Shown here: positions 1 through 34,066 of the stretch, one piece after another
Layout of the letters: each line of letters opens with the position of its first letter
Position numbering within the stretch: position 1 is the stretch's first letter
The notes under the pieces: model-generated
What the model saw: the letters and a program-made list of their open reading frames with translations, nothing else
Database searches by the model: none
Told to the model about the DNA's origin: nothing
Virus record (IMG/VR): IMGVR_UViG_3300021178_000011
Location: 1 to 34,066 of that record
Reading direction: 5' to 3' (one strand)
DNA from: a virus
DNA: 34,066 nt
Made by a program: the position numbers and the translations under genes

Positions 1-127
1 TCCTTATAATTTTTGGACGTTTCTCGCTGACCCGGGCGCAGCTTCAGCAGTGGAACTGTTTAACCTCAACGGCAATTTAGCCACGCTAGCATCAAACACT
101 CGCAATTACACAAACGAACTTGCCGCA
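1..127. repeat. Terminal redundancy, left copy
   Basis: These 127 bases recur without a difference at the other end of the window (33940-34066). A reading frame runs through both copies in the same phase: the gene that starts at 33257 enters the copy at 33940 and continues at base 2. This shows that the sequence is a closed circle and that the ends are an assembly overlap. 127 is a usual maximum k-mer in short-read assemblers, so a true packaged terminal repeat is less likely. Confidence 0.95.
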
Positions 128-1231
128 GCCCACATGGAGTGCGATCACAACGGAACCGGCACACTCGCCTTATGCATCGGATGGTCAGGAGAAGCGTTCA
201 ACCTTGGGAATGGAACAGTAACTCGATTAAATGGTGTCACCGCTGACGCTGGGACTTTGAACGCCGGAAACACCGGACCAATCACCGAACTAGACGCGTA
301 CTGGGCTGCCCTTTTCAATCAAGGCGGGGGCACAGTGACCAACGCCTACGGATTTCACGTTGTCTCACCCATTGGAACAACTGGAGTGTTCACAAACTAC
401 ACTGCACTCCAAATTGATTCCCTTGCTTTCAACGCGGTCCACAATCCAAACGTGCTAGCTATCAATGTGACCGATGGCAACAGCAATTTTGGGAGTGGAA
501 CGGTTACTGTCGCCAATGAGGTGTTGGGATCGGGAGGAACGGGAAGCCTCTTCATAAATCACGTGGGCTCGAATGCTGCACTTACACTGCAACTGGGCGC
601 AACCAACAACGGTTTCTATGGTTCCAGTTCGATAATCACAACGATTCAAGGCACGGATTCTGCCATCACTGATTTCTCGTTCGGTCAAACAATGCTGGCA
701 GGGGATGGATTTGGATTTTCCAGTGGGGCGGTTGGGAGTCGGGACTTGTCCCTATCTCGATCCGCTGGGGCAATTTTGAATGTCGGCTCAGGGGCGTTGG
801 GCAGCACCGCTGGCACCATGGACACTTCTCGCGTCCGAACAGGTTCTCTCACTCCTACATGCACGTTTACCTCGGGCGGCGGCACGAGCCCATCCTGCGC
901 CTTCGGTCAGGGTTCAAGTGATGCTGCCGGAACAATCATCGCAACGACTGGGACGGGGGCACCGGCAGGCACAGGAACGATCACGCTTACATTCTCGGCG
1001 GGCACAACATTCGCAGTCCATGCTTCGTCGTGCGTCTTCATGGCTAACGATGGCGGGGCTGGAACTTGGGCTGGACTTCCTGTCATGAAAAACAAGACGC
1101 CGGGCACAACCTCCGACTTATTCACGTGGACCAATCAGCCTGCCGCAACGGGAGCAAATACGATTGCTGTTCCGACTCCTCTGGCAACTTCAACGGCCTA
1201 CTGGATCGATTATCACTGTTGGGCGATTTGA
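2..1231 (+). CDS. Secreted spike/adhesin-like protein, C-terminal part (gene continues from 33257)
   Basis: This is the distal part of a gene whose first 683 bases lie at 33257-33939. Joined across the circle, it encodes about 637 aa. The GTG at 50 is only an internal codon; the frame is open from base 2. The segment is rich in Gly, Thr, Asn and Ser, with short repeats of the type NAYGFHV and NYTALQI, as in beta-helical phage fibres. It ends in a separate C-terminal unit with paired cysteines (TPTCTF, SPSCAF, SSCVF, YHCWAI). The full protein starts with a Sec signal peptide and a module shared with the protein at 1624. I infer a surface or receptor-binding role. No enzymatic motif is visible. 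It is followed after 21 bases by the small secreted protein at 1253. Confidence 0.8.
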   Translation, partial: PYNFWTFLADPGAASAVELFNLNGNLATLASNTRNYTNELAAAHMECDHNGTGTLALCIGWSGEAFNLGNGTVTRLNGVTADAGTLNAGNTGPITELDAYWAALFNQGGGTVTNAYGFHVVSPIGTTGVFTNYTALQIDSLAFNAVHNPNVLAINVTDGNSNFGSGTVTVANEVLGSGGTGSLFINHVGSNAALTLQLGATNNGFYGSSSIITTIQGTDSAITDFSFGQTMLAGDGFGFSSGAVGSRDLSLSRSAGAILNVGSGALGSTAGTMDTSRVRTGSLTPTCTFTSGGGTSPSCAFGQGSSDAAGTIIATTGTGAPAGTGTITLTFSAGTTFAVHASSCVFMANDGGAGTWAGLPVMKNKTPGTTSDLFTWTNQPAATGANTIAVPTPLATSTAYWIDYHCWAI

Positions 1232-1252
1232 AAAAGTTTTAGAGTTGAGCTG

Positions 1253-1627
1253 ATGAAAAATACGATTCTTCTCTCTATTGCGCTCTGCTCCTCCTCTCTT
1301 CTCTTCGCCAAAGACAAGAAAGAGGACAACTCACCGCCTGTCCTGACGCAGGATCAAAAAATCGAACTTTTGACACTGCAACGCGATGCAGCGATCAGAG
1401 CGGCTGAGGCGCAGCCGTACCTTCTGCGCATGCAACAGGCAAACGAACGATACCAACAAAAAGTACAGGAGAGGATGAAGGACGTAGATCAAAGCAAGTG
1501 GTCCTTAGATTTCATGACTCTCGAATTCTCAGCGGTTCCTGTACGTCCTATTCCTGGAAGTGCACTGAAAGATGCTGCGCCCATTGAGGGTAAAGGTAGC
1601 GCCAATCCGCCGACGCCTCCGAAATGA
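1253..1627 (+). CDS. Small secreted protein, helical
   Basis: A 124-aa product that starts with a signal peptide (residues 1-19, hydrophobic ILLSIALCSSSLLFA, then a charged KDKKED stretch). The middle (about 30-85) is a charged helical region with many Gln, Arg and Glu, possibly a coiled coil. The tail is rich in Pro and Gly. It lies between the two large secreted spike-like genes and its stop overlaps the next start (ATGA at 1624), so the three form one transcription unit. It could be a chaperone or connector for the spikes, but that is only context. I recognise no family. Confidence 0.75.
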   Translation: MKNTILLSIALCSSSLLFAKDKKEDNSPPVLTQDQKIELLTLQRDAAIRAAEAQPYLLRMQQANERYQQKVQERMKDVDQSKWSLDFMTLEFSAVPVRPIPGSALKDAAPIEGKGSANPPTPPK

Positions 1628-2787
1628 GATTCTTTCGCCATCTCGTGTTGCTTGCTCTTTTGGTGCTGCCAGCTGCGGCACAATTCACCACCGTAACCGG
1701 CACCGTCACAGACCCCAACGGCCTGCCCTATGCGCAGGGCACCATCTCATCTACGCTGGTCTCGAGCGGCTCTCCCACGCTGAGCGGCTTCGCTTACAGT
1801 CCGCCAACGCAACCCACAGGCCTCGATCGCAGCGGAAAATTCACCCTGCGCCTGGGCGACAACACCGTGCTCTCTCCCGGGGGTAGCACGTGGAGCTTCC
1901 ATGTGTGTTCGGCGGTTGGGACGGTGGCGCCCGACTTCGGCAAAGGGCCGGTCTGCTTCGATGTCACAGGGGTAACCATTTCGAGCTCTTCGCAGGATAT
2001 CGGCGTAACTTTGACCGCGGCGGCGCTGGCACTGACGGCGAACTTTGGCTCGAGCGGCTCAATCACGGCCGTGACGGTGCCCGAAATCAATGCCATCTAC
2101 CAGATCGCGCAAGGCGGTCCGGTTGGCTTCGGTTCGGTCTGTCCCGGCAATATCGGATTTGCGACAGGCACAGGCAGCACTCAGGTACTCCCGACCGCTA
2201 CGAGGCGCGCGGGGATCACTTATTTCATCACCCCGGCTGCTTCCACTTCCACCGTGGTCGGGATGGACTGCGGCCAAAATGGCAACAACTCACTCTTCCC
2301 TATCGTCGGCTGGAATCACTACACCACACAATTCTCGATTGGATCGCTTACCAATGCCCGATATTGGCTTGGGCTGGCCACCTGGAACATTGGCAGTGGG
2401 CTAGGGACAAACAGCGTCAACATCCTGAACACCACGAAGTTTGCCACGGACACACCCGCCAGCAACACGATTGGATTCCGCTTCTCAAGCGGAACGGACA
2501 CCACCTGGAAAGCGGTCACCGTTACCGCTGGCGGAAGCTCGACAATCGTCGACACATCGGTGACAGCGGACACAAACTTTCACATCTTCGAAATGACGAA
2601 CAACCTGACGGGGACTGCCATTCAATTTCTGATCGATGGCGTCGTGGTGGCTACCATCACGACCAACATACCGCCGGGCGTGCAAACTAGTGACGGACTG
2701 GCCGACATCTTCTGGACAGGTGACAACAAAAACACCGTCACCAGTCCATCGGCCACTTTCTACATGGCCCAGCTCACACTAAAGTAG
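1624..2787 (+). CDS. Secreted adhesin-like protein with lectin-like C-terminus
   Basis: A 387-aa product. Residues 1-19 are a signal peptide ending in PAAAQ. Residues about 20-150 are a beta-rich module beginning QFTTVTGTVTDPNGLPYA, closely similar to the module in the gene that starts at 33257 (same PTQPTGL, LSPGGSTWSF and GKGPV blocks). The rest differs: residues 180-387 look like a concanavalin/LamG-type sandwich, with NFHIFEM, IQFLIDGVVVATI and a terminal ATFYMAQL strand. I infer a second surface-binding protein made from the same export and anchor module with a different binding domain. It is the last gene of the plus arm and ends 7 bases before the convergent minus arm. Confidence 0.8.
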   Translation: MRFFRHLVLLALLVLPAAAQFTTVTGTVTDPNGLPYAQGTISSTLVSSGSPTLSGFAYSPPTQPTGLDRSGKFTLRLGDNTVLSPGGSTWSFHVCSAVGTVAPDFGKGPVCFDVTGVTISSSSQDIGVTLTAAALALTANFGSSGSITAVTVPEINAIYQIAQGGPVGFGSVCPGNIGFATGTGSTQVLPTATRRAGITYFITPAASTSTVVGMDCGQNGNNSLFPIVGWNHYTTQFSIGSLTNARYWLGLATWNIGSGLGTNSVNILNTTKFATDTPASNTIGFRFSSGTDTTWKAVTVTAGGSSTIVDTSVTADTNFHIFEMTNNLTGTAIQFLIDGVVVATITTNIPPGVQTSDGLADIFWTGDNKNTVTSPSATFYMAQLTLK

Positions 2788-2794: not shown

Positions 2795-3025
2795 CTAGCT
2801 CGGCCGCGAGATGCGTGGCGCTTCGACCTCGTCCGGAATGAAAACAATCTGCATGGTCAAGATCTTGCGGCACTCCTCGTGCGAGCACGCCACGGCAAAC
2901 GTCATCGAGTGGGGCGTGGGCCACTGGAAGGCGATGACGGCGGGGAGCTCCTTGCCGCAGTGAGGGCAGCAGGGGATGGGGATGGGGATGTTTACGTCGG
3001 GCTGGTACTTATTGGGGGTGCTCAC
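2795..3025 (-). CDS. Small zinc-finger protein
   Basis: A 76-aa product with a GTG start (3025-3023) that overlaps the stop of the ATPase gene by four bases (GTGA), which decides the start. It has CCPHCGKEL near residue 19 and a second pair CSHEEC near residue 48, a likely four-cysteine zinc ribbon. The N-terminus is Pro/Ile-rich. It is the last gene of the minus arm and directly follows the packaging-type ATPase, so it may be an accessory DNA-binding factor. No specific family is recognised. Confidence 0.75.
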   Translation of the reverse strand: MSTPNKYQPDVNIPIPIPCCPHCGKELPAVIAFQWPTPHSMTFAVACSHEECRKILTMQIVFIPDEVEAPRISRPS

Positions 3026-4095
3026 GGTTTCGCCTCTCCGCGCTCTCGGTCAAACTCTTGCACGATCGCCCGGGCGCTGTCCACGGATTCCTCGCCGCGG
3101 GCTATCGCCTCCGCGTGCAACGCGCTGCGCATCCATGCCGGCCACACGTAGGTTTTGAACATCTCCTGATCGAAGCACACAATAAATTCGCCTTTCCCCA
3201 GCGTCGCGATATCTGATCTCGACGGCCGCGGATAAAGATTTTCGGGGATGGCGTCCAATGTCTTTTCGATTTCCGAGCGCAGGCGCTGCACACCAAACAA
3301 CCACACCCGGATCTGGCTCAGCAGTACCGCACTGATGCCGGAAATGTTCTGGGAGTCAATCCAGAGGAAATTCTCGAGCGCGGCTCCCTGGCGGATGAAC
3401 TCTTCCGCGGCGTCGCGCACTGGCGATCGGCGCTGCGCCGGCGCAAACCTCCACGCCTCTGGCATGGCCACGATCGTGCGAAAGCTGTGCTGGTGCACCC
3501 ACCGGATCACGGATCGCACAATGAGCGATTGGATGTGGAACTCGTAGCGCTCCAGGTCGATCACGTTCAAGCCGAATTCCAGATCTGGTTTGGCGGAACT
3601 GGTTTTGAGTTTTGCGAGCTCTTCGATAGCGGTTTTCAGATCGTCCTGAATTTCGCCGAAGATCATTTCGCGCTGTCCAGTCGCTTTCGCGAGGGCGATG
3701 CTGACATTCTTCACCACGTCCTCGAGCGTGTCGGGCCGCGGCCACTCTGCAAAGAGCTTGGAGCCGGGCCGCCCGGCCTGGCCGGCACGACAAACGGATC
3801 GCAGGCACTGCCGCTGGAACTTGTCCCAGCGCTCCTCCGTGAGCGCTTCGCAGAGGGTCCGCACCGTGCGCCAGTCGACATGGTCCTCGTAATAAGGTGG
3901 AAGCTCGCGCGACAGGCGGAAGGAACCTTCGCCGCGCTTGGTGAGGAAGGCAATGCACTTCGAATCGGAGCGGGAGGCGCAGGCCTCGAGGGCGGTTGTC
4001 TTTCCGGCGCGCTGGGTTTGACCCACGATTACCATGTGGCCTACCGGGAGGTGCACGGGGTTCCCGGTACCGGATTCAAAGCCGAGATGGATCAC
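3022..4095 (-). CDS. HerA/FtsK-superfamily ATPase, candidate genome-packaging ATPase
   Basis: A 357-aa product with a GTG start overlapping the methylase stop (GTGA). Walker A is at residues 25-34 (GQTQRAGKTT). The Walker-B region is IVAMPEAWRFAP near 207-218, where the usual Asp-Glu pair reads Pro-Glu. A downstream IDSQN (246-250) matches the sensor Gln block of HerA-like enzymes, and NVIDLERYEFHIQ (about 177-189) is also typical. HerA/FtsK-type ATPases pump DNA, and tailless membrane-containing viruses use this class for packaging. Conjugation or plasmid-partition ATPases are alternatives, but no other conjugation gene is present. The class is firm; the packaging role is inferred from the lack of any terminase and from the virion-type plus arm. 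Confidence 0.8.
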   Translation of the reverse strand: MIHLGFESGTGNPVHLPVGHMVIVGQTQRAGKTTALEACASRSDSKCIAFLTKRGEGSFRLSRELPPYYEDHVDWRTVRTLCEALTEERWDKFQRQCLRSVCRAGQAGRPGSKLFAEWPRPDTLEDVVKNVSIALAKATGQREMIFGEIQDDLKTAIEELAKLKTSSAKPDLEFGLNVIDLERYEFHIQSLIVRSVIRWVHQHSFRTIVAMPEAWRFAPAQRRSPVRDAAEEFIRQGAALENFLWIDSQNISGISAVLLSQIRVWLFGVQRLRSEIEKTLDAIPENLYPRPSRSDIATLGKGEFIVCFDQEMFKTYVWPAWMRSALHAEAIARGEESVDSARAIVQEFDRERGEAKP

Positions 4096-7093: not shown

Positions 7094-7257
7094 GCGGTGT
7101 GCTCCTCTCGTGCGGCTACTCTGCGGATGTCTTGCTCGGCTCTCCATTCGGCCGTTTCCCTGCTAAGGTTCCCCATAAATTCGATGATCGCGGCGCGTTC
7201 GCTCCACAATTCCAGCCATCTGGCGGGCCAGCGGTCGCGACTGAGGGGAAGGTTCAC
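7090..7257 (-). CDS. Small Trp/Arg-rich protein
   Basis: A 55-aa frame, starting GTG at 7257 and ending with a four-base overlap onto the next start at 7093. The product is helical and charged, with five Trp (RWPARWLELWSERAA, ETAEWRAEQDIRRVAAREE). Upstream pairing to the ribosome is weak. Support comes from the coupled stop, the natural composition and its place in an otherwise gapless gene string. No family is recognised. Confidence 0.5.
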   Translation of the reverse strand: MNLPLSRDRWPARWLELWSERAAIIEFMGNLSRETAEWRAEQDIRRVAAREEHTA

Positions 7258-7273
7258 GGCTCAGTCGTCCCAT

Positions 7274-7384
7274 CTAGCTGCCGATTGAATTCTCGTATTC
7301 AAAGTCGGCGAAAACCTCTGCCGAAATGCCCCAAACGGTGAGCACCAAACAAATCGCGAGAGTGATCCATCCAAAAATCTTCAT
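7274..7384 (-). CDS. 36-aa membrane or secreted peptide
   Basis: The ATG at 7384 overlaps the upstream stop (ATGA) and the frame ends with TAG at 7274. Residues 4-25 are hydrophobic (FGWITLAICLVLTVWGISAEVF), followed by a short acidic tail (ADFEYENSIGS). This is either a one-pass membrane peptide or a signal peptide with a tiny mature part. Its size suits a phage accessory membrane peptide. Confidence 0.5.
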   Translation of the reverse strand: MKIFGWITLAICLVLTVWGISAEVFADFEYENSIGS

Positions 7385-7575
7385 CGGCTGAGCCTCACAA
7401 TCACATCCAGCAAAAAATCGACGTCCACGGCGCTAACCATGAAGCGGTTCGCCCGATCGCGCGCGATCCGGAACAGCCTCTTGCGCTCTTCGTCGCTGAG
7501 GGGCAAACTGCGGGCCGGGGTGGCGGGCTCGGTGGCACTCCTGGCAACTCCATAAGACTCCGGCGCTCGTGTCAT
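7381..7575 (-). CDS. Small helical protein, unknown
   Basis: A 64-aa product from the ATG at 7575, which has GGAG nine bases upstream. A longer frame to 7674 is Ser/Thr-rich and less convincing. The C-terminal half is a clear helix (LSDEERKRLFRIARDRANRF) followed by a hydrophobic end (VDFLLDVIVRLSR). The first 143 bases overlap the end of the HNH gene (7433-7789) in another frame. Function unknown. Confidence 0.55.
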   Translation of the reverse strand: MTRAPESYGVARSATEPATPARSLPLSDEERKRLFRIARDRANRFMVSAVDVDFLLDVIVRLSR

Positions 7576-7789
7576 CTCGATTAGCTCCGTGCTTTTTGTG
7601 GGAGAGTTCCCCGTGCTTGAGCCCATCCCATCCCGCGAATCGGTTGCAGCGCTTTCCGTTTCGGATTTCTTCACAGCGTCCCCCTGACCGGTTGTAGACG
7701 GCGCGGCGCAGATCGGTCTTGTCCTGGCCGCGGAGTTTGACTCGTCCGGTGCGCCACAAGACTTTGCTGCGCGGATCCTTGAACTTCAT
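7433..7789 (-). CDS. HNH endonuclease-like protein
   Basis: A 118-aa product starting MKFKDPRSKVLW at 7789, with the start overlapping the upstream stop by four bases. The core is a zinc-bound HNH fold: GGRCEEIRNGKRCNRF, then GELSHKKHGANRDDTSAGVLW and CQECHRARHPG. HNH proteins cut DNA. In phages they act as homing nucleases or as packaging or recombination nucleases. Here the gene is collinear with its operon, unlike the antisense insertions at 22103 and 26605, so an integral role is possible. The C-terminal 30 residues are Arg/Gln-rich and overlap the next gene. Confidence 0.75.
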   Translation of the reverse strand: MKFKDPRSKVLWRTGRVKLRGQDKTDLRRAVYNRSGGRCEEIRNGKRCNRFAGWDGLKHGELSHKKHGANRDDTSAGVLWSCQECHRARHPGPQFAPQRRRAQEAVPDRARSGEPLHG

Positions 7790-7992
7790 GGGTAGTTCGC
7801 CTTTATGTACTCCGCAACTTTGTCCGCCACTCGCCAATTGTTGGTGGCGCCGTTGTGGCACTCGAAGTCTGGGTATTTGGCGCAGAGTTCGCGGGTCGCT
7901 TCGGCGACTAGGGCGAGAAGATCAGCTAAAGGGACCTGAGTGCGCACCCAACGCTCAATCGCCCCTGTCCATTCGTTGTCACTCCGCCTCAT
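7786..7992 (-). CDS. Small helical protein, unknown
   Basis: A 68-aa product starting MRRSDNEWTGAIERWV at 7992; the start overlaps the Gp37/Gp68-family stop (ATGA). It continues with PLADLLALVAEATRELCAKYPDFECHNG and ends VADKVAEYIKANYP, an all-helical pattern. Two Cys and one His lie mid-protein. Its stop overlaps the HNH start, so the three genes are coupled. I recognise no family. Confidence 0.65.
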   Translation of the reverse strand: MRRSDNEWTGAIERWVRTQVPLADLLALVAEATRELCAKYPDFECHNGATNNWRVADKVAEYIKANYP

Positions 7993-8942
7993 GCGCTCAC
8001 AACCTCGGCTTTCTGGCTGGGGAACTCGCGGACGCGCAGTGCTTCCGGCCACTCGGCAGGATCTCCGCCCTTGCGATCGCGCACACTCTGCCGCGTGAAT
8101 CCGTCTGATCCTCCACTCGATATCAACTTTTCCCGGGCCTCGGTTTTCCAGTAGGAATTACTGCCGAGTTGCTTCATAAAGAACGGCACATCCGCGGCGT
8201 GGCACTGCTCGAGCAGTGATTCCGCCCATGCCAGATTGAACGGGCGCGCACCTGGTCCGGACTCTCCGCCACAGATGACCCAATCGATTCCGGGAATTAC
8301 CGGGTCGCATCCATCGAAGCCCGTTAGGTAGGAAATCCATCCCACCTCTGGCGTGTCGTGGCCTAGGTCGATGTGCTCGAGTTGCGGCTCTACGCTTAGG
8401 AAGCGGACAGCGGCAGGGGTTTCTTGCAGGCGCGGGATGCGCTCAAGCGCGCGCTTCCGATCTTCGACGGACACGCCGCACCAAATGTGTGGCGGCGGCG
8501 GACCTGGGGTAAATGTAAACAGTAGTATTTCCTGCATGCGAGCGGCGCGCTTCGTGAGCAGCTGGAACGTGTGCTGGGGGCAGCGCACCATCACGTCGAG
8601 CACGGTTGCGATTAGGAACGGGCCTATAGCCTCATGGAATAAATCGAACATGTCACCCACGAAGATGCGCGCGGGTTTCGTGCGGCGCAGCGGTTCCTCG
8701 AGGATCTTCTCGTCAATGAAGAATTCGATGTGCTTGAGGTTTGGGACGGTGTACTCGAGTCCGTTGCCAAATCGCTTGTTGATGACGGAGGCGTAACAGT
8801 GTGTGCATCCCGGCGATATGCGGGTGCAGAACGTGCCTTTGCGGATCGTCCGTTTTGCATCTTCTGGCGACTGATAGCCTTTAAGTGCGGCGCGGATCGG
8901 GTTCCACGTAAAGTCCGTCCATTCGATTGACGTCTTGTTCAT
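7989..8942 (-). CDS. Phage Gp37/Gp68 family protein (DUF5131)
   Basis: A 317-aa product with the hallmark start TSIEWTDFTWNPI and the cysteine motif CTRISPGCTHCYA (residues 39-51), then QLLTKRA, WCGVSVED, RFLSVEPQLEHIDL and WVICGGESGPGARP. All are characteristic of this family, which is widespread in phages and mobile elements. The three-cysteine motif resembles a radical-SAM-type iron-sulfur site, but to my knowledge the reaction is not established. The start ATG lies at 8942 after a 126-base gap with a GGAAAGG-type site. Family assignment is firm; the role is unknown. Confidence 0.93.
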   Translation of the reverse strand: MNKTSIEWTDFTWNPIRAALKGYQSPEDAKRTIRKGTFCTRISPGCTHCYASVINKRFGNGLEYTVPNLKHIEFFIDEKILEEPLRRTKPARIFVGDMFDLFHEAIGPFLIATVLDVMVRCPQHTFQLLTKRAARMQEILLFTFTPGPPPPHIWCGVSVEDRKRALERIPRLQETPAAVRFLSVEPQLEHIDLGHDTPEVGWISYLTGFDGCDPVIPGIDWVICGGESGPGARPFNLAWAESLLEQCHAADVPFFMKQLGSNSYWKTEAREKLISSGGSDGFTRQSVRDRKGGDPAEWPEALRVREFPSQKAEVVSA

Positions 8943-8951
8943 GATGTCCTG

Positions 8952-9050
8952 CTATCCTTTCCGGGGTGGGGAGCATTGTTGCCGGGTCGTTTCAATCGCT
9001 TCGCGAGGAATCAAAACGACTTCCTGAATATGGCTAACTGCTGTCCCCAC
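8952..9050 (-). CDS. Possible 32-aa peptide
   Basis: A short frame in the 126-base gap between the Gp37/Gp68-family gene and the next gene upstream. It starts GTG at 9050 and ends TAG at 8952 (VVLIPREAIETTRQQC in the middle). GAGG lies directly against the start, which is poor spacing. I list it because the gap is otherwise unexplained. It may equally be untranslated leader. Confidence 0.25.
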   Translation of the reverse strand: MGTAVSHIQEVVLIPREAIETTRQQCSPPRKG

Positions 9051-9068
9051 CCTCGGAACTTGCGTGTG

Positions 9069-9659
9069 CTAACAACTGCACGAAAAATATGAGGCACGGG
9101 CGATCATCTTCTTGCCTGTGACCACTTCCATGTGCTCCCAGAATTCCGGCGGAATCTCTCCGTGAGCATCCCTTCCTTCAAAGTGCAGGTACTCACCATC
9201 GTTGCTGTAAGGTGTGCCGCCGTAGGAAGCCAGAGCTTGAATCGGTTCACCGGCTGCGGCTGCAATTACGATGTCGTAATCTGGGCAGTCGGATCGGGCG
9301 ATAAAGTCGCGCAGCCACTCCTCTGATTGAGCTTTAGACTTGACGCTCCACCGGCCTGGCTCGTCCGGGAATGCGGGATGAGTCCACACATGCCGCAGTG
9401 AGTTGATTTGGCGCGGGTACACGACTAGCCAAAAACGGTCACCTGGTAGAACTGCGGATTTCAGGAACGGATCCACGATGCCAACGGGATTGTTCCGTGT
9501 TCCGTCCACTCCTACGTCTTGACCTGGGTAAAGTTTTTCCGCGGCGACGGTTGGCTCTACGGCCAAATGAATCGCGTCGCGCTTCTCCTGCGCGCTGATG
9601 ATCGTGCCCAATGTCGCCAACGCGTCGGTGTGAACGGAGCGCTTTTCGGCGTCACTCAT
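9069..9659 (-). CDS. Uncharacterised phage protein (VGIVDPF...WTHPAF type)
   Basis: A 196-aa product. I chose the second ATG (9659, MSDAEKRSV), which lies nine bases after AGAGG; the first ATG (9668) sits directly on that site. Conserved-looking blocks are NPVGIVDPFLK, DRFWLVVYPRQI and LRHVWTHPAFPDEP. The C-terminal half holds an acidic helical segment and GEIPPEFWEH, ending SYFSCSC. I recall proteins with this WxHPAF motif in other phage genomes, always unannotated, but cannot check that. It lies just downstream of the ERF protein, so a DNA-metabolism role is possible. Confidence 0.75.
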   Translation of the reverse strand: MSDAEKRSVHTDALATLGTIISAQEKRDAIHLAVEPTVAAEKLYPGQDVGVDGTRNNPVGIVDPFLKSAVLPGDRFWLVVYPRQINSLRHVWTHPAFPDEPGRWSVKSKAQSEEWLRDFIARSDCPDYDIVIAAAAGEPIQALASYGGTPYSNDGEYLHFEGRDAHGEIPPEFWEHMEVVTGKKMIARASYFSCSC

Positions 9660-9672
9660 CGTCGGCATCCTC

Positions 9673-19651: not shown

Positions 19652-19663
19652 GAAACTAGGAAA
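19640..19663 (+). repeat. Three tandem CTAGGAAA units
   Basis: The 8-base unit CTAGGAAA is repeated three times without change, and the last copy ends three bases before the ATG at 19667. Each unit carries AGGA, so the array offers three successive ribosome-binding cores. The last one has suitable spacing. The number of units could vary by slippage and tune translation of the 316-aa protein. Confidence 0.7.
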
Positions 19664-19666
19664 AGC

Positions 19667-20617: not shown

Positions 20618-20623
20618 ACGGCT

Positions 20624-24672: not shown

Positions 24673-24932
24673 CACGTCCTGCAGATTTCGACGCCCTGGT
24701 TTTGTTTGCGATGGCTGCCTACGAAGCATCGGCGGAGCGCGCGGAAGCGATCGTGACCAACCATGCCGATGCGGTGCGGGCAGAAATGGAGCAAGCAAAG
24801 AAAACCGTGACCCCTTCTGGAAGTAATCGCAGGATGGAGGATCGGCCGGCGCGCGAAGAAACCCCGGCGGAAGAGAAGGCGCGAGAGGCTGCCGAAGAGG
24901 CAGAGGAAGACGCAGAGGATGTGCAGCCATGA
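24669..24932 (+). CDS. Small acidic helical protein
   Basis: An 87-aa product, GTG start with four-base overlap. A helical N-terminus (FDALVLFAMAAYEASAERAEAI) leads to an extended acidic tail (EEKAREAAEEAEEDAEDVQP). It is followed at once, with an ATGA overlap, by the protamine-like gene. An acidic partner encoded next to a very basic protein may act as its chaperone, but this is only an inference from charge and position. Confidence 0.7.
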   Translation: MTRPADFDALVLFAMAAYEASAERAEAIVTNHADAVRAEMEQAKKTVTPSGSNRRMEDRPAREETPAEEKAREAAEEAEEDAEDVQP

Positions 24933-25039
24933 AAAAGAAACGGCGCCGAAAGAAGAAAGCGGCGCGGCGCAGACGGAGAAATCCGACACCCCCGCGGAAT
25001 AGCAAGGGGCAATTCCGGAAACGGAAACGGCGGAGGTAA
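24929..25039 (+). CDS. 36-aa protamine-like protein
   Basis: ATG overlaps the upstream stop (ATGA), and TAA is at 25037. Twenty-three of 36 residues are Lys or Arg (MKKKRRRKKKAARRRRR, then NPTPPRNSKGQFRKRKRRR). It has no hydrophobic core. It resembles virion DNA-condensing peptides such as adenovirus mu or sperm protamines in composition only. In the middle of a virion gene cluster it probably neutralises packaged DNA. Its last codons also carry the GGAGG that serves the next gene. Confidence 0.75.
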   Translation: MKKKRRRKKKAARRRRRNPTPPRNSKGQFRKRKRRR

Positions 25040-25045: not shown

Positions 25046-25639
25046 TTGGCAGAAGTAAGGGTGTTCAATCCGACCGCCTACACGCCGCGAAGCTATTTCG
25101 CGGAAGGCGAGCGAGAAGGGAGGCATACCGAAATGGCGAGACACAGGCATCACCATCGTCGGCGTCGCCACAATCCGTTTGGATTGTCTGGCGGCGTTGT
25201 GAAGGACGCGGCTTTTAACGCGGCTGGTGCGCTCGGCTCTCTGTTCCTGGCTGGCTTCGTTGGTCAGAGCGGATGGGCAGACGTAGCGGTCACGGGTGCT
25301 GCGGCTGTCGCTGCATCGTTCGCGGGCAAATTCGTCGGCGGGGCTTCGGCCTCCGAAGAATTGCTCAAGGGCGGGCTCACGGCCACCATCATCAAGGCGC
25401 TGCATCAGGCGGGCTTTGCGAAGTCGATCGGTCTCGGGCTGTACGCTCCGAGCTGGTTCGGCGTTCCCACGGCTTCAAGTCAGTACCTGCAGGCATCGCA
25501 GGCCAACATGGGACCGTATCGTCGCGGCGCGGGAACGATCTTCTTCCCGGGTCCGGGCGGCGCTCCTGCGCTCCCTCCCGCGGGCGTGGCCGGAATGGGC
25601 TTCCATCGCTTCCGGTCACGTTACGCAGGGAATTACTAG
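25046..25639 (+). CDS. His/Arg-rich protein with two membrane helices
   Basis: Two in-frame starts each have a good ribosome site: TTG at 25046 (GGAGG nine bases upstream; 197 aa) and ATG at 25133 (GGGAGG nine bases upstream; 168 aa, MARHRHHHRRRRHNPFG). After the basic His/Arg block come hydrophobic Gly/Ala helices (AAFNAAGALGSLFLAGFVGQ, VAVTGAAAVAASFAGKFVGG). The C-terminal 60 residues are Pro/Gly-rich and aromatic. A basic tail facing DNA with helices in a lipid layer is what a minor membrane protein of an internal-membrane virion would look like. Confidence 0.7.
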   Translation: MAEVRVFNPTAYTPRSYFAEGEREGRHTEMARHRHHHRRRRHNPFGLSGGVVKDAAFNAAGALGSLFLAGFVGQSGWADVAVTGAAAVAASFAGKFVGGASASEELLKGGLTATIIKALHQAGFAKSIGLGLYAPSWFGVPTASSQYLQASQANMGPYRRGAGTIFFPGPGGAPALPPAGVAGMGFHRFRSRYAGNY

Positions 25640-25753: not shown

Positions 25754-26539
25754 ATGGTCAACAAAGAAAAATTCTCATCCCGCTATGCTTCGCGTTTCGC
25801 GCGGTGTACGGAGATTGAGGAGCGGGAAGTCGGACGTCCCAAGACTCATCTGCTACGCAAAAACCCGATCGTCGCGGGGCAGTTGGAGTACTTAGTTCAG
25901 CCGATTTATGATTTTTACGCCGTCGCGGTTGCCACCGCGGTGACGAAACAATCACTGTTCTCGCTCCCCATCGGGCAATCCTACACCCCTTCCGGTGGCG
26001 CGGCATTCTCGAAAACCGTCTACCACACCAACCTAGTACAGGCTGGCATGCTGGACGCTCCGAAAAAGCTGCTCATCAAGGCGGTGGCAGGTGTGTTGCG
26101 TTCTGACTGCGCTATTCAGGACACGAACAGCTTCATCGGCACCACCTACGTGGAACTGGACATTTCCGGTAAACCCTACTGGCAATCCCTGTTCTCGAAG
26201 GTGCCGGCTGGGGCTGGAACGTTCGCAACCTTCGGCAACACGCAGACGCTGGCAGCTGGCGGCACGAGCGTGGTGGCGACGGCGAACGGCTGGCCCAGTG
26301 CGCAGAACGTAGCCACGATCACGGACCCCATGCCGCAAATTCCGGGCCTGGACCCCATGGAACCCATCATGGGCCAATTGATCGAGCAAAACCAGAACTT
26401 CGTCGTGATCTTAGATCCGACGATTTCCGGTGTGGCTGCATTCACCACGCTGGCGGCGGCGCCGGCGACGCAGTTCATCGGCACGGGCATCAATGCTCAT
26501 GTCTATTTGGAAGGTGTCTTAGCTCGCGCAATTTTGTAA
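25754..26539 (+). CDS. Candidate major capsid protein
   Basis: A 261-aa product with the best ribosome site of the arm (AAGGAGG at 25736-25742), as expected for the most abundant virion protein. The sequence is beta-rich, with no membrane helix or enzyme motif: LEYLVQPIYDFYAVAVATAVTK, TTYVELDISGKPYW, QNFVVILDPTISG. It ends NAHVYLEGVLAR, a strand whose pattern matches the ends of the two large proteins in the three-gene group downstream (VQIVFYGSVLR) and, less closely, the third. I infer a jelly-roll capsid protein. It lacks features of an HK97-type capsid protein such as a scaffold or protease neighbour. This needs a structure prediction. Confidence 0.6.
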   Translation: MVNKEKFSSRYASRFARCTEIEEREVGRPKTHLLRKNPIVAGQLEYLVQPIYDFYAVAVATAVTKQSLFSLPIGQSYTPSGGAAFSKTVYHTNLVQAGMLDAPKKLLIKAVAGVLRSDCAIQDTNSFIGTTYVELDISGKPYWQSLFSKVPAGAGTFATFGNTQTLAAGGTSVVATANGWPSAQNVATITDPMPQIPGLDPMEPIMGQLIEQNQNFVVILDPTISGVAAFTTLAAAPATQFIGTGINAHVYLEGVLARAIL

Positions 26540-26572: not shown

Positions 26573-26599
26573 GAGTGAACAGGCGAGCGATGTTCACTC
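26573..26599 (+). terminator. Hairpin after the capsid candidate
   Basis: GAGTGAACA (26573-26581) and TGTTCACTC (26591-26599) form a perfect 9-bp stem with a 9-base loop, 33 bases after the stop. The plus strand continues ACTCTTTAATTT, a weak U-rich tail. It may be a partial terminator that lets capsid mRNA accumulate, or a protective 3' hairpin. It also lies 5 bases from the end of the antisense LAGLIDADG gene, so it could belong to that insertion. Confidence 0.45.
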
Positions 26600-26604
26600 A
26601 CTCT

Positions 26605-27045
26605 TTAATTTGGCCACAAGTGATCGAGGGGGATGTGCTTCAATCGCTTTATTTCGCGCAACATGATGTCGCGTTGCTCGCGCACCGCAGCGGGTACACC
26701 GCGCTTGCAATATGCGCGAGTCTTTGTTCGTTGAAAGGCGATGCCGATTTCCGCTTGATCGCGTTTGATAACGAAGTAGGCAAGGCATCCTTCAAGCAAG
26801 GTGCGTGCGACATTTCCAGAAACAAGCCATTCGAGTGTTGCGCGTCGATTTTGTCTGCCTTTGCGAAAAGTTACCGAACCAACACCAAAAGTTTCTTTGC
26901 ACCAAAGTGGGAGACGTGGATCTGTGTTCACAACGACGATGCGCAGCTCGTGCCACTGTCGCTTGCTGCTCACGATGCGAATAAAGATGCTGCCCTCACT
27001 GTCGATATAAGCGGCGAGTCTCGCCCAATCAATTTCTTGCGGCAT
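26605..27045 (-). CDS. LAGLIDADG homing endonuclease
   Basis: A 146-aa product, antisense within the capsid cluster. The motif LAAYIDSEGSIFI (residues 10-22) is a LAGLIDADG helix with its acidic catalytic residue, followed by VVVNTDPRLPLWC and FGVGSVTFRKGRQNR, typical of the single-motif class that acts as a dimer. The start at 27045 has AAGGTGGAG upstream. Such genes spread by cutting an uninterrupted allele. Here it sits between two virion genes, not in an intron as far as I can see. Confidence 0.85.
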   Translation of the reverse strand: MPQEIDWARLAAYIDSEGSIFIRIVSSKRQWHELRIVVVNTDPRLPLWCKETFGVGSVTFRKGRQNRRATLEWLVSGNVARTLLEGCLAYFVIKRDQAEIGIAFQRTKTRAYCKRGVPAAVREQRDIMLREIKRLKHIPLDHLWPN

Positions 27046-27098
27046 AGCTCCACCTTTGAAAATCGGACCGGGGCATTCTACCGCAATGGAGGTGTGTC

Positions 27099-27533
27099 AT
27101 CGACCCCCTTTTAGACGATCAGTTCGAACGTCAATTCTTCTCCTACGTGCTCGACCGCGCTGTACCGGGGAACGCAACGCAGGATCCGAACCAACTGCAG
27201 ATCCTGAGCGACGCGGACTTCGAATGGTGGTGGGTGCTCGCGTCGCGTACGGATACGCGCATCAAGGTGATGATGAAAGAGCAGGCAACCGGGAGAGATT
27301 TCATTGGAACCACCGCGTCTGCCTCCTCTGGCCCAGCGACCTTTAATGGCATTTTTCTGGACAATTGGGCAGGAACGGCGCTGGCCACGGCGGCATTTCC
27401 GCTGGCGGTGCCTTACATCATGCCCGCAACGCGTGTCTACACTTTGCTTTTCACGGACACGAGCGGCGCGACGAACACGGTGCAGCTGGTGTTCTCGGGC
27501 TTCAAACTGTGGCCGCGGCCGAAGGTCGGCTAA
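27099..27533 (+). CDS. Candidate jelly-roll virion protein A; possible ATC start
   Basis: The frame opens after a stop at 27057, but the first standard start is GTG at 27147 with no ribosome site. GGAGGT at 27088-27093 points to an ATC at 27099 (5-base spacing), giving 144 aa beginning IDPLLDDQFERQFFSYVLDR. The product is beta-rich (DADFEWWWVLASRTDTRIKVMM, ATRVYTLLFTD) and ends NTVQLVFSGFKLW, matching the C-terminal strand of the two following proteins. The insertion of the LAGLIDADG gene just upstream may have removed a normal start. A capsid or vertex component is inferred. Confidence 0.65.
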   Translation: MDPLLDDQFERQFFSYVLDRAVPGNATQDPNQLQILSDADFEWWWVLASRTDTRIKVMMKEQATGRDFIGTTASASSGPATFNGIFLDNWAGTALATAAFPLAVPYIMPATRVYTLLFTDTSGATNTVQLVFSGFKLWPRPKVG

Positions 27534-27543: not shown

Positions 27544-28176
27544 ATGCCGGGGAGATCACATCCCTACTCGCTTGATCATGTGCTGCAGAACCAGCTATCG
27601 AACCTGGTGCCTCTGCGGCGCACGAACCAGCAGTGTTACCAACTCGGTTTCCGTCATCCGTCCGGCGACCTGGATGGCTACGGGCCGATGTGGGAAGTGA
27701 TCACGATGCAGCTGAACGCTTTCGGCACGAAGGATGCGCGCGTTAATTTGCAGCGCGACTTTCATTTGCTAGGTGTGATCGGCAACGCCACCGGGCCGAA
27801 TGGATTCCGCACAGCGCTCTACGACGTAAAGAAGAAGCGACGGTTCGCGGATCGGCCGTTCGGGCACTTCAACATGCTGGGCGGACAAGGGGCGGTGTTT
27901 ATGCTGCGCCGGCCGTATCGCTTCGATGAGCCGAATTCGCAGCTGATGGTGATGGTGCAGAACCTGGATACCGTCGCCTCGACTGTGCAGATCGTGCTCT
28001 ACGGCTGCGTGCTGCGCTTCAATGACCCGCGGCCGTGGAAGCAGGGGCGGCACGGTCATCAGTACATGCGGCGGTTCCTGGATCCAAATCTGGGCCCGCC
28101 CTGGTACGCAAAAGCAGAAGAGCACCATTTGTCGATAGAGGAAGAAAAGGCAGGCGACGAAAATGGCCGGCGCTAA
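27544..28176 (+). CDS. Candidate jelly-roll virion protein B
   Basis: A 210-aa product from the ATG at 27544 with GGGAG four bases upstream; a longer frame from 27304 overlaps the previous gene and is rejected. It is clearly paralogous to the next gene: LDGYGPMWE, ARVNLQRDFHLLGV, NGFRTALYDVKKKRRFADR, RRPYRFDEPNSQL, VQNLDTVASTVQIVLYGCVLRFN. The beta-rich core suits a single jelly-roll. The C-terminal 45 residues are charged and His-rich. It may be one of a pair of capsid proteins, as in P23-77-like phages, or a vertex protein. Confidence 0.7.
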   Translation: MPGRSHPYSLDHVLQNQLSNLVPLRRTNQQCYQLGFRHPSGDLDGYGPMWEVITMQLNAFGTKDARVNLQRDFHLLGVIGNATGPNGFRTALYDVKKKRRFADRPFGHFNMLGGQGAVFMLRRPYRFDEPNSQLMVMVQNLDTVASTVQIVLYGCVLRFNDPRPWKQGRHGHQYMRRFLDPNLGPPWYAKAEEHHLSIEEEKAGDENGRR

Positions 28177-28735
28177 ACCCTACACGCTGCGATTCGTAAG
28201 CCAGCATCCGCTGGCCCGCATGCTGCCTCTGCATCGCTATCAGGATCAGGCGTACCGGCTGGGGGAAAAACTTCCGCCATCGGCGCTCGACGGGCACGGA
28301 CCGACGTGGGAAGCGGTGACAGTGGCGCTCAATGCGCGCAGCACCCTGCAGGTCCGCGTGAATTTACAGCGCGATTTTACCCTAATTGCGATTTCTGCAA
28401 GCTCTTCCTCCAGCGTGAACGGCGGATTCCGGGCGCAATTTTACGACAAAAAGAAGGGCCTGCGCTTCGCGGATCGCAACGTGAATCAAGTCAACTTCGC
28501 CGGCACGGTGGCGGGGGGCAGTAGTCCTGTATTCCTGCGCGAGCCGTATCGCTTTGATCTGCCAGACTCACAGCTTCTGCTCAACGTGCAGAATCTCGAA
28601 ACCGTCGCAAACACGGTGCAGATTGTGTTCTATGGCTCGGTGCTGCGCTTCAATGAACCAGCGGGGCGGAACTTTCCGGGCGGCGTGTTCACGGGCTACG
28701 ACTGGAATTTACCACCACAGAAGGGGCAGCGATGA
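28163..28735 (+). CDS. Candidate jelly-roll virion protein C
   Basis: A 190-aa product whose start overlaps the previous gene by 14 bases. It aligns along its length with protein B: LDGHGPTWE, VRVNLQRDFTLIAI, NGGFRAQFYDKKKGLRFADR, REPYRFDLPDSQL, VQNLETVANTVQIVFYGSVLRFN. Only a Ser-rich loop and the tail differ. Tandem duplication is the obvious origin. Two related barrels would allow a capsomer of mixed subunits. No other function is suggested by the sequence. Confidence 0.7.
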   Translation: MAGAKPYTLRFVSQHPLARMLPLHRYQDQAYRLGEKLPPSALDGHGPTWEAVTVALNARSTLQVRVNLQRDFTLIAISASSSSSVNGGFRAQFYDKKKGLRFADRNVNQVNFAGTVAGGSSPVFLREPYRFDLPDSQLLLNVQNLETVANTVQIVFYGSVLRFNEPAGRNFPGGVFTGYDWNLPPQKGQR

Positions 28736-29382
28736 GTCTCTATCAAAGTCGATTCTCGCGTTTCCCACGGCCGGTTACGAAAGATCAGCGCGGACTCACG
28801 CGCACCCTGGCAGGCCTGGGGCAGCCTCCGACGGTGCGCGACGTGGTGAACTCCTACCCCATGCCAGTGGATCAGTCGGAAGTGGATCCGTTTGGTCCCA
28901 GTTCGCAATCCGGACCGCAATCAACGCGCGATCTTCCCGTCTGGCTCTACCCTCCGCGCAACTGGGAAAACATCGATCAGCTGGCCTATACGCTTCTGCC
29001 GGCCATCAATTCCACGGCGATAATTCTCACGTACCTGGTGCCCATCGGCCGCAACGGTGTGATTAATAAAGTCGCGTGCAACTTCGTGGGCGGCGGATGG
29101 ACCGCGGGCACGGGCGATGTGGTGTGGCGCATCCTGATCGACGGCACGCCTCCGCCGGGGGCGACGAGTTACGACAATATCGTCGATTCGCTGGGCTCGC
29201 CGGCGCAACCGGTGGGAATTTCCGGCTTCCGTATTTTTGAAAACCAGACATTGACGGTCGTCATTTTCAACAATCCCGCGGGCGCAAACGGCGGCGTGGT
29301 CGTCGCCGGGCAACGGGCGGGCGCGCGCGTGCTGGGGCATCTCTATCCGCGCGACATGGAACTCGACGATCTGTGGATCTAA
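28732..29382 (+). CDS. Beta-rich virion protein D, possible vertex/penton
   Basis: A 216-aa product, ATGA overlap with protein C. The N-terminal 75 residues are Pro-rich and extended. The C-terminal 140 are beta-rich: NSTAIILTYLVPIGRNGVINKVACNF, DVVWRILIDGTPPP, ISGFRIFENQTLTVVIFNNP, RVLGHLYPRDMELDD. The second half looks like one jelly-roll, with no close similarity to B or C. A penton or spike-base role is possible. It completes the likely capsid operon. Confidence 0.65.
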   Translation: MSLYQSRFSRFPRPVTKDQRGLTRTLAGLGQPPTVRDVVNSYPMPVDQSEVDPFGPSSQSGPQSTRDLPVWLYPPRNWENIDQLAYTLLPAINSTAIILTYLVPIGRNGVINKVACNFVGGGWTAGTGDVVWRILIDGTPPPGATSYDNIVDSLGSPAQPVGISGFRIFENQTLTVVIFNNPAGANGGVVVAGQRAGARVLGHLYPRDMELDDLWI

Positions 29383-29385
29383 GCG

Positions 29386-29946
29386 ATGGTCGTGGCGATC
29401 AGGCACGGGCACACTTCGCTCAATGCGGCAAAGGGCGGAGGCGAGGCGGAACTGTACCGGGGAAACCTGGGGGTTCCGCTCGACGATCAGGGGCAGCGCG
29501 AGGCGCTGGAAGCGGCGCACAAGATCGGGCTACCGGTGCGGATGGTGGTGTCCGATTCCATGCCGCGGGATTTTGAGACGGGCGCGATCATCGCGGCGGA
29601 CCGGAAAGCAGTCCACCTGATCGATGAACGGCTGGCGCCCATCAACATCGGGCTTCTGTCGGGCAAGTCGGTGAAAGAAGTGGCAGACCTGGTGGACTGG
29701 TTCTTCCACAATCCGGACGTGCCCTTTCCGGAAGGCGACGCGGTGGGCGACTGGTACAAGAAGCAGCAAGACGCGATCTTTGATTACCTGAACGAGGACG
29801 ACGGAGACAAACACTCCGCCATTGTGCTGATCGTGCAGGGATCTACGTTTCGCGCACTACCGGCCATGATGAACGAGGACGACTGGAGCTTGATTGAGAG
29901 CACTACAGAAAGAATTCCGACTGGTGATATCGAATGGTTGACTTAA
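29386..29946 (+). CDS. Histidine-phosphatase-superfamily homologue lacking the second His
   Basis: A 186-aa product. IRHGHTSLN (residues 5-13) is the RHG signature with the phospho-accepting His7. VSDSMPRDFETGAII (55-69) matches the second Arg block, and LLSGKSVKEV the following motif. At the place of the second catalytic His (normally hGG) the sequence reads IVQGSTFRAL, with Gln151. Enzymes of branch 1 remove phosphate from small molecules or proteins. Loss of this His should reduce catalysis, so a binding role or altered activity is likely. It is unusual in a virion operon. It has no ribosome site and is probably coupled to the gene before it. Confidence 0.8.
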   Translation: MVVAIRHGHTSLNAAKGGGEAELYRGNLGVPLDDQGQREALEAAHKIGLPVRMVVSDSMPRDFETGAIIAADRKAVHLIDERLAPINIGLLSGKSVKEVADLVDWFFHNPDVPFPEGDAVGDWYKKQQDAIFDYLNEDDGDKHSAIVLIVQGSTFRALPAMMNEDDWSLIESTTERIPTGDIEWLT

Positions 29947-32124: not shown

Positions 32125-32125
32125 G

Positions 32126-32320: not shown

Positions 32321-32532
32321 GACCGGGCGAAGCAAAGGTCGGGCAAAAGGTGCGCACGGTTGTAGCGTTCGCGGCCTATCCGGAAATCAAAATCGGAACA
32401 AAGGCCACCGTGATCCAAGTCTTGGCGCAGAAGGACGACGGGGAAACAGATGTGCTCTTCGTGCATCCCCACATCTGGAGGGGCGAGAAGGTGATGCCGT
32501 GCACCGCGGCGGAAGTGGAGCTCATTTACTGA
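32317..32532 (+). CDS. Small SH3-like beta protein
   Basis: A 71-aa product starting MRPGEAKVGQKVRTVVAF at 32317 (four-base overlap). The pattern VGQKVRTVV-IKIGTKATVIQVLAQ-TDVLFVHPHIWRG-VMPCTAAEVELIY looks like a five-strand SH3/KOW-type barrel. The longer frame from 32149 is a shadow. Function unknown. Confidence 0.65.
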   Translation: MRPGEAKVGQKVRTVVAFAAYPEIKIGTKATVIQVLAQKDDGETDVLFVHPHIWRGEKVMPCTAAEVELIY

Positions 32533-32774
32533 TGGCCTTTCTTCTCGAGGTGGCGATCATCGACGGCGGGGATGACACGGTCAAAGTCGTGCATCAATTC
32601 TTCGGGGTGACGGAGCGCGAAGTCGAAACCTACAAGCGGGAGCACTTATCCGGCTGCGAGTACTTTCGCACGGCGGAGCGCGAGGGGCGGACGATCGAGG
32701 ACCTAGAGGAAATCGACGCGAGCGAACTGCCCACCGCGGAGGATTACGAGCTCGAGGAGGACGAAAGTGCCTGA
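32532..32774 (+). CDS. Small acidic protein
   Basis: An 80-aa product starting MAFLLEVAIIDGGDDTVKVV at 32532 (TGATG overlap). Beta strands, then a helix (FGVTEREVETYKREHLSG), and a highly acidic C-terminus (EEIDASELPTAEDYELEEDE). It overlaps the muramidase start by 8 bases. No family is recognised. Confidence 0.6.
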   Translation: MAFLLEVAIIDGGDDTVKVVHQFFGVTEREVETYKREHLSGCEYFRTAEREGRTIEDLEEIDASELPTAEDYELEEDESA

Positions 32775-33252
32775 TTTCATTCCAACCTGGGCGGATGCCA
32801 TCGCGCGCTTTGAGGGGTTCTACTCTGCGGGCTCGCGGCCGGCACGAAACCACAATCCGGGCGATCTGAAATTCGCCGGGCAACCTGGTGCCATTGGACA
32901 GGACTCTGCTGGCTTCGCGATCTTCCCTGATGATGCGACCGGATTTCAGGCGCTCTACAACCAACTCTCGAAATATGTGCGCGACTTTCCGGGCTACTCG
33001 CTCCTGCAAATCATGGCGCACTATCTCGGCCAGCACGCTCCCACCACGGACGCACAGGGCAACGCTTTCAGTTACGCGAGCGCGGTGGCGGGCGAACTTG
33101 GAGTGGACACCAGTGCGACGCTAGCGGACCTCTCGAGCGGCGACACGACAGCGACCGGCGACGGCGGACCGGTTCCGGGCGATGGGGGAATGTTGGGAAT
33201 GGCCATCGTGGGCGCGCTCGCGCTCTGGCTGGCAATGAAGTTTTTCGGGTGA
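32767..33252 (+). CDS. Muramidase-like protein with C-terminal TM anchor
   Basis: A 161-aa product, GTG start. ARFEGFYSAGSRPARNHNPGDLKFAG (13-38) has the catalytic-type Glu16 and the NxNPGxLxF block of lysozyme-like muramidases; GFAIFPDDATGFQALYNQL follows as in that fold. A Gly/Asp-rich linker leads to a C-terminal membrane helix (MLGMAIVGALALWLAMKF). A cell-wall enzyme with a C-terminal anchor resembles virion-bound lytic enzymes of membrane-containing phages, which open the wall during entry, but could also act in lysis. Confidence 0.75.
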   Translation: MPDFIPTWADAIARFEGFYSAGSRPARNHNPGDLKFAGQPGAIGQDSAGFAIFPDDATGFQALYNQLSKYVRDFPGYSLLQIMAHYLGQHAPTTDAQGNAFSYASAVAGELGVDTSATLADLSSGDTTATGDGGPVPGDGGMLGMAIVGALALWLAMKFFG

Positions 33253-33256
33253 GCGG

Positions 33257-34066
33257 ATGCGGCGGGCTCTTGCCATCTTCGTGTTTGTCGCGCTGGCTGG
33301 TTCTGCGGCGCTCGCGCAGTTCACCACCGTTTCGGGCACGGTCACGGATCCGAATGGGCTGCCCTATGCAAACGGAACCATTTCGCCCGCGCTAGTCATC
33401 AGCGGTTCGCCCACTCTTGGCGGCTTCGCTTACACCCCTCCCACTCAACCGACTGGCTTAAGCACTGCAGGCAGCTTCACGATGCGCCTGGCGGATAATA
33501 CGCAACTGTCGCCGGGCGGAAGCACTTGGAGCTTCACCGTTTCTTGCGCAGCTGGGTGCATCCCTGCATCCGGCGGGAAAGGTCCGGTAACTTTCACGGT
33601 CACAGGAATCACGATTTCTGGCGCATCGCAGTCGATCACCGCAACACTCACAGCGGCGGCGCCTGCACTTTCTAACATCTCAGGGGGCGGCGGCGGCACC
33701 CCAGGCGCTCCTTCTACAGCAATCCAATTCAACAATGGCGGAGTCTTTACAGGGGACGCAAACTTTATCTGGAACAGCAACACAGGTTCCACGGTCCAAC
33801 TGCCTGCTAGATCACTGACCATCGGACCTACGACGAACATCGGTTACTACGGCACACTTGAATCCACGCCTCTGATCTATTCCGAAAACACCAACACCGA
33901 CTTGTGCCCCGGTTGTACGAGTCGAGGACCATTTACGGTTCCTTATAATTTTTGGACGTTTCTCGCTGACCCGGGCGCAGCTTCAGCAGTGGAACTGTTT
34001 AACCTCAACGGCAATTTAGCCACGCTAGCATCAAACACTCGCAATTACACAAACGAACTTGCCGCA
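33257..34066 (+). CDS. Secreted spike/adhesin-like protein, N-terminal part (continues at 2-1231)
   Basis: Starts MRRALAIFVFVALAGSAALAQ (signal peptide, cut before Gln). The shared module follows (FTTVSGTVTDPNGLPYANG ... LSPGGSTWSF ... GKGPVTFTVTG), with most residues identical to the protein at 1624. A Gly-rich hinge (SNISGGGGGTPGAPST) and AIQFNNGGVFTGDANF lead into the fibre-like part. The frame is open to the end and continues in phase at base 2. The complete gene (33257-33939 plus 1-1231) encodes about 637 aa. The window therefore splits one gene. Confidence 0.85.
   Translation, partial: MRRALAIFVFVALAGSAALAQFTTVSGTVTDPNGLPYANGTISPALVISGSPTLGGFAYTPPTQPTGLSTAGSFTMRLADNTQLSPGGSTWSFTVSCAAGCIPASGGKGPVTFTVTGITISGASQSITATLTAAAPALSNISGGGGGTPGAPSTAIQFNNGGVFTGDANFIWNSNTGSTVQLPARSLTIGPTTNIGYYGTLESTPLIYSENTNTDLCPGCTSRGPFTVPYNFWTFLADPGAASAVELFNLNGNLATLASNTRNYTNELAA
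33940..34066. repeat. Terminal redundancy, right copy
   Basis: Exact copy of bases 1-127. Removing one copy leaves a circle of 33,939 bp with an uninterrupted gene across the join. Confidence 0.95.

Follow-up and report, generated by a model that had tools for sequence, protein, structure and literature searches.

The DNA considered here, IMG/VR record IMGVR_UViG_3300021178_000011 (positions 1 to 34,066, hereafter the window), carries the genome of an uncultured virus which, with a probability of roughly three in four, represents a new lineage resembling Salisaeta icosahedral phage 1 (SSIP-1), with tailless, icosahedral virions whose shell encloses a membrane. A preliminary description had already proposed a tailless, internal-membrane phage of an undescribed lineage with jelly-roll proteins. 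This is the best reading because the product of gene 27099 (genes are named here by their first coordinate) is modelled as a jelly roll, two proteins are linked to virion proteins of SSIP-1, no terminase or portal is found in the scans of the window and six relatives, and the virion arm is conserved in 14 near-complete genomes.

The genome is complete:

1-34066, no strand: complete genome, a 33,939-b circle with a 127-b end overlap (exact terminal repeat and a gene across the join).

Bases 1-127 are identical to bases 33940-34066, an exact direct repeat, and a frame of 637 amino acids (aa), that of gene 33257, crosses the join; the window therefore represents a 33,939-b circle, as had been described together with its plus arm (17.4-33.3 kb, continuing past the join) and minus arm. 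At least 28 IMG/VR contigs carry the virion arm, as found in scans using 25754. Where the ends of a relative's contig overlap, its length is 33.2-38.8 kb; in 11 relatives the overlap measures 97-127 b. The identity of 25754 to its relatives is 67-98% in a near group and about 40% in a far group. All 14 complete or near-complete genomes contain the ATPase, 15783, 17455, 21223, 22588, 25046, 25754, 27099, 28163, 28732, 32499, and the spike family. The DNA-handling genes (ERF, Dam, recombinase, DUF5131) are variable, and DnaB is carried by the far group. The size is not without precedent, contrary to the earlier statement that known types have genomes of about 10-20 kb: SH1 has 30,889 b and SSIP-1 43,788 b.

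SSIP-1 is the nearest known relative of the lineage. It is a tailless, membrane-containing phage (T=49) with a circular 44-kb genome and two types of major capsid protein (MCP) (PMC6260650, PMC6356626, PMC4958249). It has been placed in the two-MCP, single-barrel group (PMC4958249, PMC5332951), and 'hardly shares any similarity' with other genomes (PMC6356626). One link to its virion lies in a transglutaminase-like gene, which is followed by other genes of a transmembrane (TM) module:

17455-18354, plus strand: transglutaminase-like protein with a C-terminal TM helix, homologue of the SSIP-1 virion protein gp34 (Pfam Transglut_core, 4e-13; 14/14 genomes).
18351-19484, plus strand: Pro/Gly-rich protein with an xGLG motif, probably a membrane-associated virion protein (13/14 genomes).
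19667-20617, plus strand: virion-arm protein with a C-terminal TM helix and an LHGLG motif (TM prediction and motif).
20633-21226, plus strand: virion-arm protein with a C-terminal TM helix and an LHGLG motif (TM prediction and motif).
21223-21714, plus strand: virion-arm protein with a C-terminal TM helix and an LYGLG motif (14/14 genomes).

Among 50,697 phage records, gp34 gave the best E-value in a tblastn search with 17455 (1e-7), and the match is strong by hhalign (99%) and hmmsearch (2.8e-24). The two proteins agree in their C-terminal TM helix and in the position of a G[LM]G motif. The family has invariant Cys-His-Asp positions; scanned for in 2.9 million viral contigs, it was found only in SSIP-1 and members of this lineage. 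As previously described, a C-terminal TM helix recurs in the plus arm, in five proteins (17455, 19667, 20633, 21223, and 32767).

The other link is to SSIP-1 gp47, which like its homologue here lies after the putative shell proteins:

27099-27533, plus strand: capsid-type protein with one predicted jelly roll, homologous to SSIP-1 gp47 (structure model; fold and profile matches).
27544-28176, plus strand: jelly-roll paralogue of 27099 (family hhalign, 95%).
28163-28735, plus strand: jelly-roll paralogue, tandem duplicate of 27544 (nucleotide repeat; family hhalign).

The AlphaFold2 (AF2) model of 27099, for which 54 homologues were used as input (effective number of sequences 3.3, versus 2.3 for 25754), has a predicted local distance difference test score (pLDDT) of 85 and eight strands (9-22, 29-34, 40-50, 55-61, 66-69, 100-108, 113-120, and 126-139), a confident prediction of a jelly roll. 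Its matches in the PDB are modest (best E 5e-3) and include a Pam1 capsid protein, PHM, SH1 VP7, and a plant-virus capsid; that to VP7, the small MCP of SH1, is 6qt9_h (probability 1.00, E 0.017). In a viral library, nine entries pass 1e-3, including I1ZBI0 (256 aa, TM-score 0.64), which is probably gp47, since no other SSIP-1 protein is 256 aa long. Independently, at the profile level, gp47 ranked first among SSIP-1 proteins (hmmsearch 1e-5; 17.2 bits, versus at most 10.9 in thousands of shuffles). The families of 27099 and of 27544/28163 are homologous (hhalign probability 95%), in agreement with the earlier notion of a beta-rich paralogous cluster.

Some peculiarities surround these genes. 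The region 27544-28735 reflects a recent tandem duplication of a jelly-roll gene (77% over 125 nt), and most relatives are single-copy. The start of 27099 (27088-27101) has no ATG, GTG or TTG; a GGAGG stands 6 nt upstream of an ATC, which is ATG in the relatives and here perhaps serves as a rare start codon, beside a homing-gene insertion. A LAGLIDADG homing-endonuclease-like gene (26605-27045, minus strand; Pfam LAGLIDADG_1 5e-4, just below the cut-off) lies between 25754 and 27099. The open reading frame (ORF) 26575-27114 on the plus strand was rejected as a gene; it has no homologue and overlaps the homing-endonuclease-like gene on the opposite strand.

The candidate MCP and other probable virion genes lie on either side:

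22588-23835, plus strand: conserved arm protein with a NPTELLVMGANP motif (14/14 genomes; short resemblance to SSIP-1 gp44).
23857-24672, plus strand: conserved arm protein (13/14 genomes).
24929-25039, plus strand: protamine-like, Arg/Lys-rich peptide of 36 aa, noted previously (translation).
25046-25639, plus strand: candidate membrane or scaffold protein, encoded immediately before 25754, with a basic N-terminus and a hydrophobic core (14/14 genomes).
25754-26539, plus strand: candidate MCP, 261 aa (14/14 genomes, conservation).
28732-29382, plus strand: conserved protein, probably of the capsid or vertex, with a LAGLG motif near the N-terminus (14/14 genomes).

From its conservation and gene position, we infer that 25754 is the MCP. 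It has no HK97-type or other match in Pfam, PHROG, and PDB profile searches, and no PDB chain is matched by its profile. A far-group genome, G020, has an extra pair of capsid-like proteins (L113:15470-17195, minus strand), one of which matches 25754 (hhalign 95%). This module reached no other relative and no known virus, and was thus rejected as a bridge to SSIP-1. A stretch NPxELxV...NP is common to 22588-23835 and SSIP-1 gp44 and is repeated in the far group; it is too short for this 'NPxEL' likeness to be accepted as homology.

The minus arm carries the candidate packaging motor:

3022-4095, minus strand: HerA/FtsK-superfamily ATPase, candidate packaging motor (PDB profile matches to HerA; 14/14 genomes).
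2795-3025, minus strand: conserved small CxxC protein adjoining the ATPase (9/14 genomes).

First Pfam and PHROG scans gave nothing for the ATPase. A 34-member profile matches HerA/DUF87 proteins of the PDB (8yho 6e-4, 7f6d 2e-3, and 4d2i 0.011), and eight members of the family each match AAA_10 and FtsK_SpoIIIE, so that a HerA-type motor of the FtsK-HerA ATPases is present, as had been described. Since the ATPase is universal in the lineage and the only motor recognised there, packaging is its likeliest role. Over 50 other viral contigs encode distant relatives, with about 36-45% identity. In the tree by which the preliminary description had proposed to place it, the tailless rows fall into three groups, but a tree that unites them in one clade is compatible with the data (p-AU 0.48 and 0.23).

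The absence of tail genes noted previously was upheld. In the window proteins scanned, Pfam and PHROGs revealed neither a terminase or portal nor an HK97 protease or baseplate. The same holds for the 88 large ORFs scanned from six relatives, by the complete Pfam list and the first 25 of 53 PHROG families; the Caudoviricetes markers, large terminase subunit and portal, were not seen in this set. With PHROGs, terminase and portal proteins were recognised among the large ORFs that surround more distant relatives of the ATPase, which demonstrates that the method finds such genes when present.

Taken together, 25754 would be the main shell protein, and 27099, 27544, and 28163 would add more vertical barrels or form parts of the vertices. 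Within the shell would lie a vesicle of host membrane, linked to the capsid by the proteins with a C-terminal anchor, which sit in it. DNA, possibly accompanied by the protamine-like peptide, may be pumped into this vesicle by the HerA ATPase; the spikes may bind the host, and the membrane-anchored muramidase would open the wall at entry.

Several observations weigh against a tailless, SSIP-1-like virus. The ATPase has relatives of about 40% identity in tailed phages with their own terminase and portal. One of these, the complete 29,980-b circle G026 (L105), has, by sequence reading, a terminase-like gene (8858-10156), a portal-like gene (7126-8904), and a capsid-like and a tape-measure-like protein; terminases and portals in the set of ATPase-relative contigs were confirmed by PHROGs. 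The ATPase alone therefore cannot prove a tailless virus, and it had to be rejected as a main argument for one. The top PDB match of 27099 is Pam1 7eel_H, a tailed-phage capsid protein, and several BFVD matches are also to tailed phages, in which jelly rolls occur too. Gene 19667 has weak PHROG tape-measure matches (1e-4) over a Gly/Ala-rich hydrophobic stretch, probably an effect of composition. Transglutaminase-like domains are found in other viruses, e.g., Geoglobus pleomorphic virus. The AF2 model of 25754, from 10 homologues, is of low confidence (pLDDT 36), and 25754 has no detectable similarity to gp45 and gp46, taken here as the SSIP-1 MCPs, or to the MCPs of FLiP, P23-77, and PM2. The packaging-ATPase candidate of SSIP-1, gp40, is unrelated by profile to the HerA-type ATPase found here instead. 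The lack of similarity to gp45/gp46 and the different ATPase make the relation to SSIP-1 a distant one. Both have circular dsDNA genomes of tens of kb, with TM proteins in the structural arm and the order transglutaminase, TM proteins, shell candidates, jelly-roll protein; however, the genome is 34 kb here versus 44 kb, and the replication and other genes differ. The host of SSIP-1 is a halophile; a host among the Acidobacteriota, put forward in the preliminary description for the virus considered here, is at most a conjecture. The lineage probably works like SSIP-1 and shares ancestry with it, though not necessarily within one family. In G020, a PAPS-reductase gene (27641-28495) matches SSIP-1 gp25 (2e-42); P23-77 also carries one.

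Similarities to other membrane viruses are looser. The Halopanivirales (SH1, HHIV-2, and P23-77) have two single-barrel MCPs and an internal membrane and, as here, a HerA/FtsK-type ATPase and TM proteins; the genome size resembles that of SH1. The 27099 model and its match to VP7 suggest a single-jelly-roll capsid protein of their kind, a likeness that is not specific alone. By sequence, no Halopanivirales MCP homologue was detected: P23-77 VP16 and VP17 gave no match, nor did any PDB chain. The ATPase resembles that of P23-77 in the P-loop only, no transglutaminase-like protein is annotated in P23-77, and the genome organisation differs. Profiles of the arm proteins gave nothing against FLiP, P23-77, and PM2 except the P-loop.

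There is a minor though real chance that a double-jelly-roll phage (PRD1, PM2 or FLiP-like), likewise tailless and with a membrane, is the better description. In that case, 25754 would be a small double-barrel MCP and 27099, 27544, and 28163 minor or vertex proteins. With 261 aa, 25754 is near PM2 P2 (269 aa), and by conservation it alone resembles an abundant shell protein; such phages, FLiP excepted, also have an FtsK-HerA ATPase. Their genomes, however, are 9-15 kb, 25754 has no profile similarity to PM2 P2, the FLiP MCP or any PDB chain (capsid proteins of PM2 and FLiP were those tested), and the specific homologues found are proteins of SSIP-1, which has been placed with the two-MCP single-barrel group cited above. 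A tailed phage with unrecognised terminase, portal, and tail, whose jelly rolls are head decorations or fibres, is very unlikely. Tailed phages commonly carry the ATPase family, the top fold matches include jumbo-phage proteins besides the tailed-phage capsid protein, and there are the tape-measure matches of 19667. Against this, the tail-gene scans of the window proteins and of the 88 ORFs from relatives, in the scope given above, were negative, also for an HK97 MCP, no arm protein reaches the length usual for a tape measure, and neither the C-terminal TM proteins nor the SSIP-1 links fit. Tailed phages such as G026, about 40% identical in the ATPase, have their own terminase, portal, and HK97-type capsid and nothing of the virion arm.

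Even slimmer are the prospects of a pleomorphic or other non-icosahedral membrane virus or vesicle, with the beta proteins as surface proteins. The transglutaminase-like protein of Geoglobus pleomorphic virus and the many TM proteins here would suit it, but the three jelly-roll paralogues adjoin a highly conserved protein of the abundant type, and the homology is to virion proteins of an icosahedral phage. That the circle is a plasmid, conjugative element or satellite seems barely conceivable; circularity, a HerA/AAA_10-type ATPase, and a small serine recombinase encoded in the window speak for it, but Pfam and PHROG scans of the window proteins and relatives gave no relaxase or type IV secretion match, the jelly-roll proteins are of capsid type, and a scan of 84,980 cellular genomes with the MCP candidate 25754 found no relative.

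The TM proteins of the SSIP-1-like lineage share a motif. In the TM module (17455-21714 and relatives) of 16 genomes, there are 52 occurrences of the pattern x-x-GLG, often as [LMFV]RGLG, versus 7.1 in shuffled sequences; for [LMFV]RGLG itself, the figures are 19 versus 0.13. Other modules lack enrichment, except a mild one in 25046/28732, and within SSIP-1 alone G[LM]G is weakly enriched (9 versus 5.0). The motif resembles sites cut by adenovirus-type maturation proteases, and one might speculate that 17455 cleaves it; we know of no such route in phages of this kind, in which a transglutaminase-fold enzyme would mature membrane-anchored virion proteins. Improbable as a whole, though worth stating, is a combined proposal: a tailless membrane lineage of family or order level, whose HerA pump is of a family that spans realms, tailed phages having it too but not as their terminase, and whose virion TM proteins are matured at a repeated [LMFV]RGLG-type site by the virion's own transglutaminase-fold cysteine enzyme.

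Other features of the window are:

32499-32774, plus strand: conserved small protein upstream of the muramidase (14/14 genomes).
32767-33252, plus strand: TM-anchored muramidase-like protein, in line with the earlier assignment (PHROG endolysin 9e-12; C-terminal TM helix).
33257-34066, plus strand: spike-like secreted protein, continuing across the join to base 1231 (637-aa frame; family in 14/14 genomes).
1624-2787, plus strand: second spike-like protein, sharing its N-terminal domain with 33257 (144-nt repeat, 75% identical; 14/14 genomes).
15783-17123, minus strand: conserved 446-aa protein without assigned function, divergent from the virion arm (14/14 genomes).

A Mom-like protein (12324-12794, minus strand; Pfam 2e-8), which none of the relatives compared has, may be involved in DNA modification. 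A histidine-phosphatase gene (29386-29946; Pfam 7e-14) lies between capsid genes in the window and its closest relatives only. The tRNA and Rfam scans of the window gave no match. The HerA-like ATPase family (L105/G026, L145, L146, and L147) occurs in tailed phages with a terminase and also on contigs binned as Ignavibacteriota and two archaea.

A HerA-like ATPase is thus not by itself the mark of a tailless virus, as the same family stands beside a terminase in tailed phages. SSIP-1, which has been almost alone since 2012, would gain at least 28 distant metagenomic relatives, many of them complete genomes, with which one may distinguish, in large tailless membrane phages, the virion genes that form the core from those that are accessory.

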